Origin: Sphingobacteriaceae bacterium
Lineage (GTDB): Bacteria; Bacteroidota; Bacteroidia; Sphingobacteriales; Sphingobacteriaceae
Length of the DNA: 64,000 nt
Reading direction: 5' to 3'
NCBI GenBank assembly: GCA_029266635.1
Contig: JAQSWM010000001.1
Span: forward strand, 124,001 to 188,000
This document shows positions 33,690-40,559 of this stretch, one piece after another (the first letter of the stretch is position 1; the number at the start of each line of letters is the position of its first letter). Below the pieces are notes generated by a model. It saw only the letters and a list, made by a program, of their open reading frames with translations. It was not told the DNA's origin and made no database searches. The translations under genes were made by a program, and so were the position numbers.

Positions 33690-34844
33690 ATGCTAATGCT
33701 TTTAGATAAATATCGAACGACCAGGAAACGCAGCGAAGACATTTGCGCTCCTCTTGAAACTGAGGATTACGTTGTTCAGCCTGTTGCGGATGTGAGCCCG
33801 CCGAAGTGGCACCTTGGGCACACCTCCTGGTTTTTCGAAACCTTCGTTCTTAAACCTCACGTGGAAGGCTATTGTGAGTTTAACCCAGATTACAATTACC
33901 TGTACAATAGTTATTATGAAAGTGTCGGCGCTCGCGTTGTACGCACTAATCGTGGGAATATCAGCCGCCCCGGTGTAGAAGAAATTTACAGCTATCGCAA
34001 GTATGTTGATGCAGCAATGGAAGCTTTCCTGGCTTCAGAACACCCGAAGCTGCCAGAGCTCAACTCTTTAATTATTCTCGGGCTTAATCACGAGGAACAG
34101 CATCAGGAGCTGTTGTTAACCGACATCAAGTACATCCTCGGGCACAATCCGCTGCTGCCAGTCTACAAAAATAAACCTGCTGAAGATATTCCCGCTCAAT
34201 CTTCTGATTTCACCAGTATCCCGGAAGGTATTTATGAGATTGGCTACAAAGGCACAGACTTCTGCTTCGACAATGAGTTGGGCGTACATAGGGTTTATCT
34301 GCACTCCTATGATATTTGCAATTCGCTGGTGAGCAATGCCGATTATCTGGAATTTATGAATGCTGGCGGCTATCGCGATTTTAAATTCTGGCATTCAGAA
34401 GGCTGGGATTGGGTTAACTCTAATCATGTTGATTGCCCGATGTACTGGCACAACATTGACGACGAATGGTTTAACTATACGTTCAACGGTCTGCAGCCAC
34501 TAAATACTGACCAGCCGGTTGCTCACATCAGCTATTATGAAGCCTGGGCATATGCAAACTGGAAAGGTATGCGGCTGCCAACTGAGTTTGAGTGGGAAAT
34601 TGCTTCGGAACAATTTAACTGGGGCACGCGTTGGGAATGGACAGAAAGTGCCTACCTGCCGTATCCTGGATTTAAAAAAGCTGAAGGTGCCATAGGCGAA
34701 TACAATGGCAAATTTATGGTTAGCCAGATGGTACTGCGGGGCGCATCCGAAGCTACGTCACCCGGGCATAGCCGCAATACCTACCGCAACTTCTTTCACC
34801 CCTCTTCACGATGGCAATTCACCGGCATACGGCTGGCAAAATAA
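33690..34844 (+). CDS. egtB: Ergothioneine biosynthesis sulfoxide synthase EgtB
   Basis: A 384-residue non-heme iron enzyme that joins hercynine and a thiol (gamma-glutamylcysteine or cysteine) with O2. The DinB-like N-terminal domain carries the iron ligands: H41-L-G-H44, then H134-E-E-Q-H138-Q-E. The C-terminal FGE-sulfatase domain follows (S-N-A-D-Y-L-E-F, R-L-P-T-E-F-E-W-E, W-E-W-T-E-S, Y-R-N-F-F). At the usual R-G-G-S-C-A-T position this protein reads R-G-A-S-E-A-T, so no Cys is present there. egtD follows after one base, giving the two-gene pathway core. Confidence 0.92.
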   Translation: MLMLLDKYRTTRKRSEDICAPLETEDYVVQPVADVSPPKWHLGHTSWFFETFVLKPHVEGYCEFNPDYNYLYNSYYESVGARVVRTNRGNISRPGVEEIYSYRKYVDAAMEAFLASEHPKLPELNSLIILGLNHEEQHQELLLTDIKYILGHNPLLPVYKNKPAEDIPAQSSDFTSIPEGIYEIGYKGTDFCFDNELGVHRVYLHSYDICNSLVSNADYLEFMNAGGYRDFKFWHSEGWDWVNSNHVDCPMYWHNIDDEWFNYTFNGLQPLNTDQPVAHISYYEAWAYANWKGMRLPTEFEWEIASEQFNWGTRWEWTESAYLPYPGFKKAEGAIGEYNGKFMVSQMVLRGASEATSPGHSRNTYRNFFHPSSRWQFTGIRLAK

Positions 34845-34845
34845 T

Positions 34846-35826
34846 ATGGACCAAACTAAGCACGCTCATAACGAACAAACATTTCGTGATAGTCAGTTTT
34901 ACGCGGATGCAATCCGGGGGCTATCGGCTTCACCGAAATACCTGCAATCAAAATACTTCTACGATACTGAAGGCGACATCCTGTTTCAGAAAATTATGAA
35001 GTCCCCGGAATATTATCTCACCAATTGCGAACTGGAGATCCTTTCCGGACAAACCGGCGAAATAGCAGATGCAATCTTAAACAGGTTTACCGAATTCGAC
35101 CTTGTTGAACTTGGTGCCGGCGATGCGCTTAAATCTTCCTACCTGCTAAATACTTTGCTCAAACGCAAGGCAGATTTCACTTATATGCCGATTGACATTT
35201 CAGCGCATGTTATACAGCAACTGGAACAAAACCTGCCTAAGAAATTATCGGGGCTGAAGCTTACAGGACTAAACGGCGAGTATTTTCCGATGCTGAAAGA
35301 AGCAAACAGGCTTTCAAAAAGAAAGAAAGTCATTCTGTTACTTGGTGCAAATCTTGGAAACATGTTGCCATCGCAGGCGCAGGTTTTCTGCAATGAACTC
35401 CGAAGGAATGTTAAGGAGGGCGATATCCTACTGATCGGATTTGACCTAAAAAAACATCCCAAAACCATCCTGAGCGCCTATGATGATGAGGCAGGCATCA
35501 CCAGAGAATTCAACCTTAACCTCTTGAAAAGAATAAACCGGGAGTTGGATGGCGATTTTAATGTGAAGGCTTTTGAACATTATGCCACTTACGACCCGCA
35601 AACCGGCAGCTGCAAAAGCTATCTGATTAGCCTTGAGAAACAGCGGGTGCATATCGGCGGAAAGCCATTCCAATTCCAAAAAGATGAATTTATTGCAATG
35701 GAGATATCGCAGAAATACGATGTGGAGGAAGTCAATACCATGGCTAGAAACGCCGGGTTTGAGTCTGTGGCCTATTTTTATGATTCAAAAAACTGGTTTT
35801 TAGATGTTTTATGGCAATGTGACTAA
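34846..35826 (+). CDS. egtD: L-histidine N-alpha-methyltransferase EgtD
   Basis: A 326-residue SAM enzyme that trimethylates histidine to hercynine, the first step of ergothioneine synthesis. It starts at ATG 34846 (MDQTKHAHNE), one base after the egtB stop; an earlier in-frame start would lie inside egtB. Recognisable motifs: P-K-Y-L-Q-S-K-Y-F-Y-D, S-P-E-Y-Y-L-T-N-C-E, V-E-L-G-A-G-D-A-L-K-S, Y-M-P-I-D-I-S, L-L-G-A-N-L-G-N and the late substrate-binding Y-x-x-Y-D-P-Q-T-G. No egtA, egtC or egtE is nearby. Confidence 0.93.
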   Translation: MDQTKHAHNEQTFRDSQFYADAIRGLSASPKYLQSKYFYDTEGDILFQKIMKSPEYYLTNCELEILSGQTGEIADAILNRFTEFDLVELGAGDALKSSYLLNTLLKRKADFTYMPIDISAHVIQQLEQNLPKKLSGLKLTGLNGEYFPMLKEANRLSKRKKVILLLGANLGNMLPSQAQVFCNELRRNVKEGDILLIGFDLKKHPKTILSAYDDEAGITREFNLNLLKRINRELDGDFNVKAFEHYATYDPQTGSCKSYLISLEKQRVHIGGKPFQFQKDEFIAMEISQKYDVEEVNTMARNAGFESVAYFYDSKNWFLDVLWQCD

Positions 35827-35893: not shown

Positions 35894-36079
35894 ATGGCAA
35901 GATACGTGACTCTACTAATTAACAATGAAGCTATGGCATTGGAGAAAAAAAGCATCATAGCAATAGAACCGCATACGGGCGGAACCAGAATAATTGTAAA
36001 GGATGACAAGCCTGGCAAGAAAACAGAATATTTTACCAGAACTAATTACGATTACGTGGTAGAGGCTTACCAATCGTAA
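35894..36079 (+). CDS. Hypothetical protein (61 aa)
   Basis: A small basic protein starting at ATG 35894 (MARYVTLLINNEAMALEKKS). Its frame runs back to 35804 with a non-ATG start, overlapping egtD, which I think less likely. The predicted pattern is four or five beta strands (Y-V-T-L-L-I, S-I-I-A-I-E, T-R-I-I-V-K) and no membrane segment. Not recognised. It may share the egtBD transcript (67-base gap). Confidence 0.5.
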   Translation: MARYVTLLINNEAMALEKKSIIAIEPHTGGTRIIVKDDKPGKKTEYFTRTNYDYVVEAYQS

Positions 36080-36094
36080 TTAAAATGGAAAGAC

Positions 36095-36187
36095 ATGATT
36101 GTTCCGATTTTAATAGGAGTGGTTTTCGTCGCGATAGTTGGTGCCGTGTTCTTTTCTAGTGGAAAACGTGATATAAAGAAGCCATGA
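36095..36187 (+). CDS. 30-residue single-span membrane peptide
   Basis: ATG 36095 opens 30 codons: MIVPILIGVVFVAIVGAVFF followed by S-S-G-K-R-D-I-K-K-P and TGA. That is one hydrophobic span with a short basic tail, positive inside. Its stop overlaps the next gene's start in ATGA (36184-36187), a standard sign of translational coupling, so it is probably a real gene although very short. No function known. Confidence 0.55.
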   Translation: MIVPILIGVVFVAIVGAVFFSSGKRDIKKP

Positions 36188-36795
36188 GCAAAGAACATAT
36201 TATTCCTGAACAGGAAAAAGGCAGCAGCAGCGATACTGAAGCTCACGCGAGCTTTAAAAGCGCAACTGAGGCGGCCGATTTCTTCAGGATCGCCAAAAAG
36301 CGGCTACTAGATGTTTCCAATTGGGATAAGATCTGCGGGAAGGCATCTGCAAAGTTCCAATTAACAGATAACACTGGGTCAGCCGTGGCCAGAGAGCCCA
36401 AGGTTGGAGATCATTTTCAGATCAACATTCCCGCTCCCGGCAACGACACGGGCGAAGGCTACGACTGGGTTCAAATTGAAGCCATCGACGATAAAGGCGA
36501 TCAGGAAAGCGATTATGAGTATACCGCTATTAAGGTTCGCCCAGCCACAAATCCTCAGAATCAAAAATCAGACACAGCCCATTTCTTCAAGGAAGACGCC
36601 ACCTCCACATTTCTGGTGGAGAGGAAAGGCAATACGGTTAGAGCCGAGGTTCATGGTCGGAATGAACTTCCGAATACAAAAACCGAAGGTGTTTTGGACA
36701 CCATTAGAAATGCCCTAGTGGCTTTAGGCGCAATGGCCGGCATCTCAACGCCACAGTGGAAAAGCCTTGTGAATGGCATTGTTGAGGTGAAATAA
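36184..36795 (+). CDS. Hypothetical soluble protein (203 aa), possibly START-like
   Basis: A 203-residue acidic protein without signal peptide or membrane segment. The spacing of predicted strands, the helix-like C-terminus (V-L-D-T-I-R-N-A-L-V-A-L-G) and the phrase V-G-D-H-F-Q-I-N-I-P-A-P-G-N-D remind me of SRPBCC/START lipid-binding folds, but no family motif is certain. Coupled to the 30-residue peptide upstream by a 4-base overlap. Followed by a strong terminator. Confidence 0.55.
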   Translation: MSKEHIIPEQEKGSSSDTEAHASFKSATEAADFFRIAKKRLLDVSNWDKICGKASAKFQLTDNTGSAVAREPKVGDHFQINIPAPGNDTGEGYDWVQIEAIDDKGDQESDYEYTAIKVRPATNPQNQKSDTAHFFKEDATSTFLVERKGNTVRAEVHGRNELPNTKTEGVLDTIRNALVALGAMAGISTPQWKSLVNGIVEVK

Positions 36796-36808
36796 AAACT
36801 GGCATCAT

Positions 36809-36845
36809 AAAAAAGCCGCGGTTGAAATTCAACCGCGGCTTTTTT
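36809..36845. terminator. Bidirectional intrinsic terminator
   Basis: A long near-perfect palindrome: AAAAAAGCCGCGGTTGAA on the left, its complement on the right, with one base between. A run before and T run after make it usable for both this transcript and the convergent small protein gene. Confidence 0.9.
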
Positions 36846-36859
36846 GTTTTGAGCCCTAA

Positions 36860-37171
36860 TTACAGTAACAGGATCAATAAAAGAATGATAATGATAATAG
36901 CACCCACTGAAAGATAAACGCCACCGCCAAGTGCTTTAGCTTCTTTCTTCATGCTTTTCAACTCAGTTTTCAAATCCTGACGCTGTTGAGAAGTCAGGTT
37001 TGACTTATCCATTGCCTGAATTTCCTCCACCCTGTCTTTAATCTGTTCAATCCGTACCAGCTGCTGCTCGGTTGGTTGCTCTTTTGGTTTTGAGCTTGCA
37101 TAAGCCGGAACAGACATCACAGTAACAGCCAGCATTAAGCTTGCAAATAGTAAATAAGCTTTCTTCTTCAT
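36860..37171 (-). CDS. Small envelope protein with coiled coil and C-terminal membrane anchor (103 aa)
   Basis: Signal peptide (residues 1-25, cleavage after A-Y-A), a charged coiled-coil-like middle (about 30-80, rich in Glu, Gln, Lys) and a C-terminal 18-residue tail of almost pure Ile/Leu after G-G-G-V-Y-L. Exported and then anchored by its C-terminus, with the helix domain in the periplasm. Similar short proteins are common in Bacteroidota, function unknown. The 151-base upstream gap shows nothing definite. Confidence 0.7.
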   Translation of the reverse strand: MKKKAYLLFASLMLAVTVMSVPAYASSKPKEQPTEQQLVRIEQIKDRVEEIQAMDKSNLTSQQRQDLKTELKSMKKEAKALGGGVYLSVGAIIIIILLLILLL

Positions 37172-39680: not shown

Positions 39681-40559
39681 TTACTCGCCCGTCAGTGCCT
39701 CCCGGCTCTCCTGCAGCTTTGCAACTTCATCCTCTGAAAGCTCCGGATATTTGAGGTTTAGATTCTGTAAAGTTTCCACGATGATTGAGCAAACCGCCAC
39801 ACGTGCAAACCACTTTTTATCTGCAGGGATGATGTACCATGGAGAATTTTTAGTTGAAGTATTTCGGATGGCATCCTGGTAAGCATCCATGTACTCGTCC
39901 CAATGCCGCCGCTCCTCAATGTCAAACGATGAAAATTTCCAGTTCTTAGCCGGATCATCTATCCGCTCTAGAAATCGCTCCTTCTGCTCCTTTTTAGAAA
40001 CGTTCAGGAAGAATTTGATGATCATCGTTCCATTCCGGTGAAGATGCTTTTCAAAATCGGCAATGCTGGTGTAGCGTTTGTCCCAAAAATCGCCGTCAGG
40101 CTTCTCTCCCACTTCTAGATCGCTTCTGTTCTCCTTCAAAAGCAATTCGGGATGTACCTTACAAACCAGCACGTTTTCGTAATGCGAGCGGTTGTGGATC
40201 CCAATCCTCCCCTTTTCCGGCAAAGCTTTGTAGTGCCGCCACAAGAAATCGTGTTCATAATCTTCGGAAGATGGCTGCTTAAAGCTGTAAACCTGACAGC
40301 CCTGAGGATTCAGCCCACTCATCACATGCTTGATTGCACTGTCTTTCCCCGCGGCATCCATCGCCTGGAAAATCAGCAGCAAAGAATGCTGATTGTTCGC
40401 GTAAAGCAGATCCTGAAGCTCAGTTAATTCCGCTTTAAGCCGCTCGAGCTCGGCTGCTGCACTCTCCTTATCAAAATCACCGGTAAAATCGGTATCAAAA
40501 TCCTTCAGATTGAACTCACCGTTTTCGCCGGCAAAAAATTCTTTAATTTTCAAACCCAT
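39681..40559 (-). CDS. ppk2: Polyphosphate kinase 2 family protein
   Basis: A 292-residue PPK2-type enzyme that moves phosphate between polyphosphate and nucleotides. Walker A A66-M-D-A-A-G-K-D73, followed by S-G-L-N-P-Q-G-C-Q-V, F-L-W-R-H-Y-K-A-L-P-E-K-G, the lid N-R-S-H-Y-E-N-V-L-V, and the late W-K-F-S-S-F-D-I-E-E-R-x-x-W-D-x-Y. Class I and III members differ in whether AMP or ADP/GDP is preferred; I cannot decide. It is 98 bases from, and divergent to, the PBP gene. Confidence 0.92.
   Translation of the reverse strand: MGLKIKEFFAGENGEFNLKDFDTDFTGDFDKESAAAELERLKAELTELQDLLYANNQHSLLLIFQAMDAAGKDSAIKHVMSGLNPQGCQVYSFKQPSSEDYEHDFLWRHYKALPEKGRIGIHNRSHYENVLVCKVHPELLLKENRSDLEVGEKPDGDFWDKRYTSIADFEKHLHRNGTMIIKFFLNVSKKEQKERFLERIDDPAKNWKFSSFDIEERRHWDEYMDAYQDAIRNTSTKNSPWYIIPADKKWFARVAVCSIIVETLQNLNLKYPELSEDEVAKLQESREALTGE

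Follow-up and report, generated by a model that had tools for sequence, protein, structure and literature searches.

A 30-codon gene for a predicted membrane microprotein overlaps a gene for a predicted START-fold protein behind egtBD in a member of the Sphingobacteriaceae

Introduction

Behind the ergothioneine biosynthesis genes egtB and egtD of a Sphingobacteriaceae bacterium lie three small open reading frames (ORFs), the second of which would encode a hydrophobic peptide of 30 residues and ends within the start of the third. This locus raises the question of whether so short a frame is a gene and, if it is, whether its product and the 203-residue protein encoded after it work as a pair. 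The locus was analysed in the window (the whole stretch of DNA under study, 64,000 nucleotides) and compared with sets of other genomes, where genera and genomes are referred to by g and G numbers, respectively.

Results

Gene organisation behind egtBD

All three ORFs were present where the first-pass annotation had placed them, each with an ATG start (Table 1). EgtB scored 355.7 bits against the SenA profile, under the SenA cut-off of 420, and EgtD scored 290.2 bits against TIGR03438, slightly short of the cut-off of 290.9. The 61-mer gene starts 67 bases after egtD and its stop codon is followed after 15 bases by the start of the 30-mer, the TGA of which sits within the ATGA at the start of the 203-aa gene. 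The latter start matches the N-termini of homologues in alignment, so that both the start and the ATGA overlap already described for this locus are sound. Upstream of its start, the frame of the 61-mer stays open as far as an ATG at 35804, but the 61-aa start is the one at which its homologues begin.

Table 1. Features of the egtBD region in window coordinates.
Feature	Position	Strand	Basis or description
egtB, ergothioneine biosynthesis EgtB	33690..34844	+	TIGR03440, 545.7 bits (cut-off 360)
egtD, histidine methyltransferase	34846..35826	+	PF10017, E=6e-98
61-aa small soluble protein	35894..36079	+	by alignment, probable diverged paralogue of a 62-64-aa family
30-aa putative single-span microprotein	36095..36187	+	hydrophobic N-terminal span, basic C-terminal tail
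ATGA stop/start overlap of the 30-mer and 203-aa genes	36184..36187	+	
203-aa protein	36184..36795	+	predicted SRPBCC/START (Bet v 1) fold, HGRNE signature
Strong bidirectional intrinsic terminator separating the 203-aa gene from the convergent 103-aa gene	36807..36847		hairpin and U run
103-aa exported protein, convergent neighbour	36860..37171	-	C-terminal span

The terminator hairpin comprises 19 pairs (-29 kcal/mol, z -7.8) before its U run, and was missing from the list produced by a consensus terminator scan; the C-terminal span of the convergent 103-aa protein is rich in isoleucine and leucine. At a distance of 2.5-4 kb downstream, the minus strand carries genes for an AHSA1-type SRPBCC protein (PF08327, 39266-39646), which is a second and clearly assigned helix-grip protein in the neighbourhood, and for a PPK2 polyphosphate kinase (39681-40559).

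Given the 67-base gap, co-transcription of the three small genes with egtBD is plausible. In the sequence after egtD in 29 relatives, no homologue of the 61-mer, the 30-mer or the 203-aa protein was recognised, and the egtBD link is therefore local. A literature search found, within the limits of the terms tried, no paper on ergothioneine genes in this phylum.

Scans of the 61-, 30- and 203-aa proteins against Pfam, NCBIfam, PADLOC and PHROGs returned nothing above cut-off (for the 203-aa protein, SRPBCC families included), and no defence or phage link emerged. The statement in the first-pass annotation that none of the three could be recognised thus holds as far as curated families are concerned, but all three proteins have homologues and none is an orphan.

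A conserved microprotein family

Against a background drawn from 464 kb of this genome, the 30-mer (MIVPILIGVVFVAIVGAVFFSSGKRDIKKP) was the second most hydrophobic of 345 intergenic ATG-started ORFs of 20-60 codons, and it was the sole ORF with a 17-residue hydropathy window of at least 2.2 among the 14 that abut or slightly overlap a following gene. A search of 41 relatives gave no convincing match, and one of 351 genomes gave weak matches (E 0.01-0.1), behind which lay four peptides, each 30-34 residues long and begun by ATG, that match the 30-mer at their start and carry a basic tail. A profile built from these four peptides and the window 30-mer (five sequences) found members outside its training set in G256 (E 4e-12), G112 (4e-11), G276 (7e-11), G131 (3e-10) and G261 (5e-10), together with more start-aligned members at E values up to about 3e-4. 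The resulting family, in which the G261 member is counted from its profile match and not from a sequence read out, comprises peptides of 25-37 residues in 23 of 379 genomes and six genera (g1, g13, g15, g16, g18 and g20), with the start motif M-[IFLV]-x-[PS]-[IL]-x-x-[GA]-[IV]-x-F, one span and a K/R-rich tail. The window 30-mer shares the size range, ATG start, start motif, single span and basic tail of the family. Several further low-E matches (L242, L249 and L250-L254) were excluded as internal segments of other proteins or as a different, longer peptide; the peptide in L242 and L249 (genus g13) is a separate single-span peptide of about 50 aa (PILIGV..KEFEEEVIQSELPPEKDDKEN), conserved along with its neighbours and outside the 30-mer family.

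In 24 of 25 pairs, pS in the peptide frame was at least three times pN (for example 0.88 vs 0.15 and 0.46 vs 0.02), as measured at the loci of relatives, the genus of the window being represented by a single genome in the comparison set. An excess of pS in nearly all pairs is the mark of a translated peptide that is selected for its sequence. That the 30-mer is instead an untranslated hydrophobic frame arising by chance in the spacer between the 61-mer and 203-aa genes is extremely improbable: the comparison set holds no second genome of the genus for the same locus and the tail of the window member differs from those of the other members, but independent members were recovered at E values of 4e-12 to 5e-10 (by a profile that includes the 30-mer itself), the same Met start and motif recur across members under purifying selection, and hydrophobicity and overlap of this degree are jointly rare in this genome. 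Judged on its sequence and that of its relatives, the 30-mer is a real gene and a member of an unnamed microprotein family that spans several genera, as the earlier reading of the frame as a gene had supposed. From the distribution of charge, its product would be a single-span inner-membrane microprotein with the basic tail in the cytoplasm.

Size and a single span would also fit, in a general way, a toxic peptide of the type I toxin-antitoxin kind (DinQ, PMC3567139; Hok) that stands before the 203-aa gene by chance. No second close copy of the 30-mer was seen in this genome, however, Rfam gave no match in the region, and in several genera the peptide is co-directional with its neighbours across short gaps, all of which makes a toxin very unlikely. 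The FeoB-associated Cys-rich membrane proteins (PF12669) gave a weak match to the span in 14 of 18 microprotein members (best E 0.0027); the 30-mer itself, which is without Cys, scored 14.5 bits against a cut-off of 27 and was rejected as a member, and no feoB was recognised among the neighbours examined at peptide loci.

Gene neighbours of the microprotein in other genomes

Conservation of the span and of the ATGA overlap in relatives, which the first-pass annotation had put forward as a check, was found in part: the peptide frame is kept in other genera, but its position beside the 203-aa gene is not, the ATGA pairing being seen in this genome only. Elsewhere the peptide stands next to other genes. 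In G070, G107 and G049, a protein of 92-93 aa is encoded 16-37 bases downstream of the microprotein (at position 1501 of the locus, on the matching strand); this protein is conserved (THDHEVIKKW..GVLRIHFP..FLYQE) and family-less, and was found in these three genomes of two genera. In five g16 genomes the microprotein lies 12-15 bases before a gene for a 576-577-aa protein with an N-terminal span, which looks AsmA-like by eye but had zero Pfam or NCBIfam matches. In G040, G062 and G014, the microprotein is preceded, at 12-26 bases and on the same strand, by a gene for a protein of 83-87 aa without a known family. Also near peptide loci are DUF892-type, Dps-like (by eye), AHSA1, mechanosensitive-channel and baeRF genes.

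Distribution and predicted fold of the 203-aa protein

Of 301 genomes of the taxonomic family, 174, from 13 of 25 genera, carry a homologue of the 203-aa protein, mostly at 36-63% identity. Further homologues occur in other families of the same class (Bacteroidia) and in a Flavipsychrobacter MAG and a Bacteroidetes MAG; the gene is single copy in this genome. About 30 residues are nearly invariant across the family, among them a GYDWV-type motif, W47, G65, D76, P83, P85, W95, H133, HGRNE at 157-161, N164, R175 and Q191-W192. A PDB sequence search with the 203-aa profile found no relative. The AlphaFold2 model, made from a three-sequence alignment, had a mean pLDDT of 70.8 and a pTM of 0.72, as the best of five models that disagree (mean pLDDT 70.8 to 35.5) and with residues 160-185 poor. 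Its elements follow the order b1-a1-a2-b2-b3-b4-b5-b6-b7-a3-a4, which is the SRPBCC/START topology. The best Foldseek matches of the model were kirola, ginseng MLP and PR-10 proteins (E 4e-4, probability 0.99), and with VIA-align, alignments of about 150 residues gave Z scores of 12.6 (4r7k) and 11 to 12 (PYL abscisic acid receptors). The prediction of an SRPBCC/START (Bet v 1) fold therefore has good support, and the protein is filed under that fold without being assigned to a named family. As a scaffold, the START/Bet v 1 fold accommodates large hydrophobic ligands (PMC2577659). On the model, the 203-aa protein most likely binds a bulky hydrophobic ligand, which may be, for example, a membrane lipid, a quinone or an oxidised lipid.

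The 61-mer as a diverged paralogue

The 61-mer appears to belong with a family of 62-64-aa proteins that has homologues in 20 of 201 genomes and no Pfam match. A canonical 63-aa copy is present in this genome (G000:C17:133305-133484; L275, 1803-1994) beside an RRM RNA-binding protein (NF058537), and the same adjacency of a family member and an RRM RNA-binding protein was seen at a second locus (L033). Relative to this FEKxRIIxIEP family (motifs FEK, EP..GTKII and EASHxxEEP), the 61-mer keeps the EK, EP and GT-II positions and has lost EASHxxEEP; by alignment, it looks like a diverged copy from a small family that is located elsewhere. A single-sequence model was all-beta but, at a pLDDT of 57, too poor to use, and a PDB search with the 61-mer profile returned sliding-clamp matches only, at chance level.

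Association of the microprotein and 203-aa families

At about 47 other 203-aa loci inspected, no peptide abutted the gene or lay directly upstream of it. The two families were nevertheless found within 7 kb of each other in four of 19 other genomes that hold both (1.5 kb apart in G107, 1.0 kb in G131, 3.9 kb in G256 and 6.6 kb in G276), against 0.07 expected at random (P about 1e-6; counting the two g16 cases as one event gives 5e-5). A 203-aa homologue is held by 20 of 23 peptide-bearing genomes vs 174 of 301 genomes, in a comparison that ignores relatedness; G040, G062 and G014 have the peptide family and no 203-aa homologue. The microprotein and 203-aa families share a gene neighbourhood beyond chance, yet they are no obligate pair. 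Clustering above chance makes a functional link plausible.

The first-pass annotation had gone further in suggesting that the peptide and the soluble protein are membrane anchor and effector, a reading by which the 203-aa protein would be bound at the membrane by the peptide, in a ratio fixed by coupled translation. The ATGA overlap, the clustering and the commoner occurrence of the 203-aa gene in peptide genomes fit such a pair, but most 203-aa genes have no adjacent peptide, each family occurs without the other, and elsewhere the peptide directly precedes the 92-aa or 577-aa protein; taken as a whole, an anchor and its effector are unlikely here, although the suggestion has partial support. 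In a bolder variant, the microprotein family would serve START-fold proteins as a membrane partner and, under stress, bring the 203-aa lipid binder to the inner membrane; the two would form a bacterial lipid sensor or carrier in two pieces, coupled in translation in one operon here and loosely clustered elsewhere. This variant seems to us quite unlikely. It is decidedly improbable that the peptide acts mainly in cis as a leader, with the ribosome-binding site of the 203-aa gene being opened as the peptide is translated: the overlap and the 15-base gap to the 61-mer would suit that role, but the amino-acid sequence of the peptide is under purifying selection where it is not upstream of a 203-aa gene, which a leader would not need.

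Stress-related neighbourhoods of 203-aa homologues

Of 40 loci with a 203-aa homologue, eight have a DUF892 (YciF-type) gene at a distance of up to about 8 kb, as against none of 40 control regions from the same genome set (P=0.003), a P value that, like those of the other neighbours, is optimistic because recurrent neighbours, including the DUF892 cluster, were sought first and chosen after the data had been viewed; the DUF892 domain was confirmed in two of these neighbours. With the same 40 loci and 40 controls, a short-chain dehydrogenase cluster was found at eight loci and in two controls, and the family of the convergent 103-aa neighbour of the window in five vs none. A PurU-like protein of 279 aa is encoded directly upstream of the 203-aa homologue in five loci. 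The 30-mer and 203-aa families had no curated match to any stress family; that both belong to a stress gene set is a reasonable reading of their neighbours.

Discussion

The explanation that we favour, and consider rather probable, is that two independently evolving conserved families and a diverged paralogue of a third were joined behind egtBD in this lineage, where the START-fold 203-aa protein and the membrane 30-mer would be co-produced, both of them drawn from a general envelope or oxidative stress gene set. In such an arrangement the 30-mer would sit in the inner membrane with its basic tail in the cytoplasm, the 203-aa protein would be a cytosolic helix-grip protein that binds a bulky hydrophobic ligand, the ATGA overlap would serve to make the two together, and the ergothioneine synthesis genes upstream may lie on the same transcript. 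That the two share an envelope or stress gene set appears likelier to us than that they form an anchor-effector pair.

The description of the cluster as the best candidate for an undescribed small system was overstated, with the 203-aa family found in 174 of 301 genomes, the peptide family standing beside other genes, and the 61-mer being in all appearance a paralogue. The microprotein and 203-aa families appear to be undescribed in the libraries searched and to be of known kinds, namely small membrane proteins and helix-grip proteins. A 30-codon gene, of a length that length-based calling skips, is here a member of a microprotein family conserved across Bacteroidota genera, and a predicted fold and a likely context can be offered for a protein family that is absent from Pfam and NCBIfam and is present in more than half of the genomes sampled from the taxonomic family. 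The 30-mer and 203-aa pair could show how a START-like protein works at a bacterial membrane.

Known systems offer comparisons. In size, single span and basic tail, the 30-mer is like E. coli YohP (27 aa, PMC7549839), a small stress-associated membrane protein; YohP comes from another phylum, and the 30-mer has a conserved start motif (MxxPIxxGIxF). With SRPBCC/START/Bet v 1 proteins, the 203-aa protein shares a predicted helix-grip topology and a good structural alignment to PR-10, MLP and PYL proteins, whereas it lacks a Pfam or NCBIfam SRPBCC sequence match and has HGRNE and GYDWV-type motifs of its own. Finally, general stress neighbourhoods with genes for DUF892 (YciF-like) ferritin-type proteins resemble the setting of these families in that the same type of gene recurs near 203-aa homologues and some peptide loci, whereas in the window the place of a DUF892 gene is taken by egtBD and, at a distance of 2.5-4 kb, by AHSA1 and PPK2 genes.
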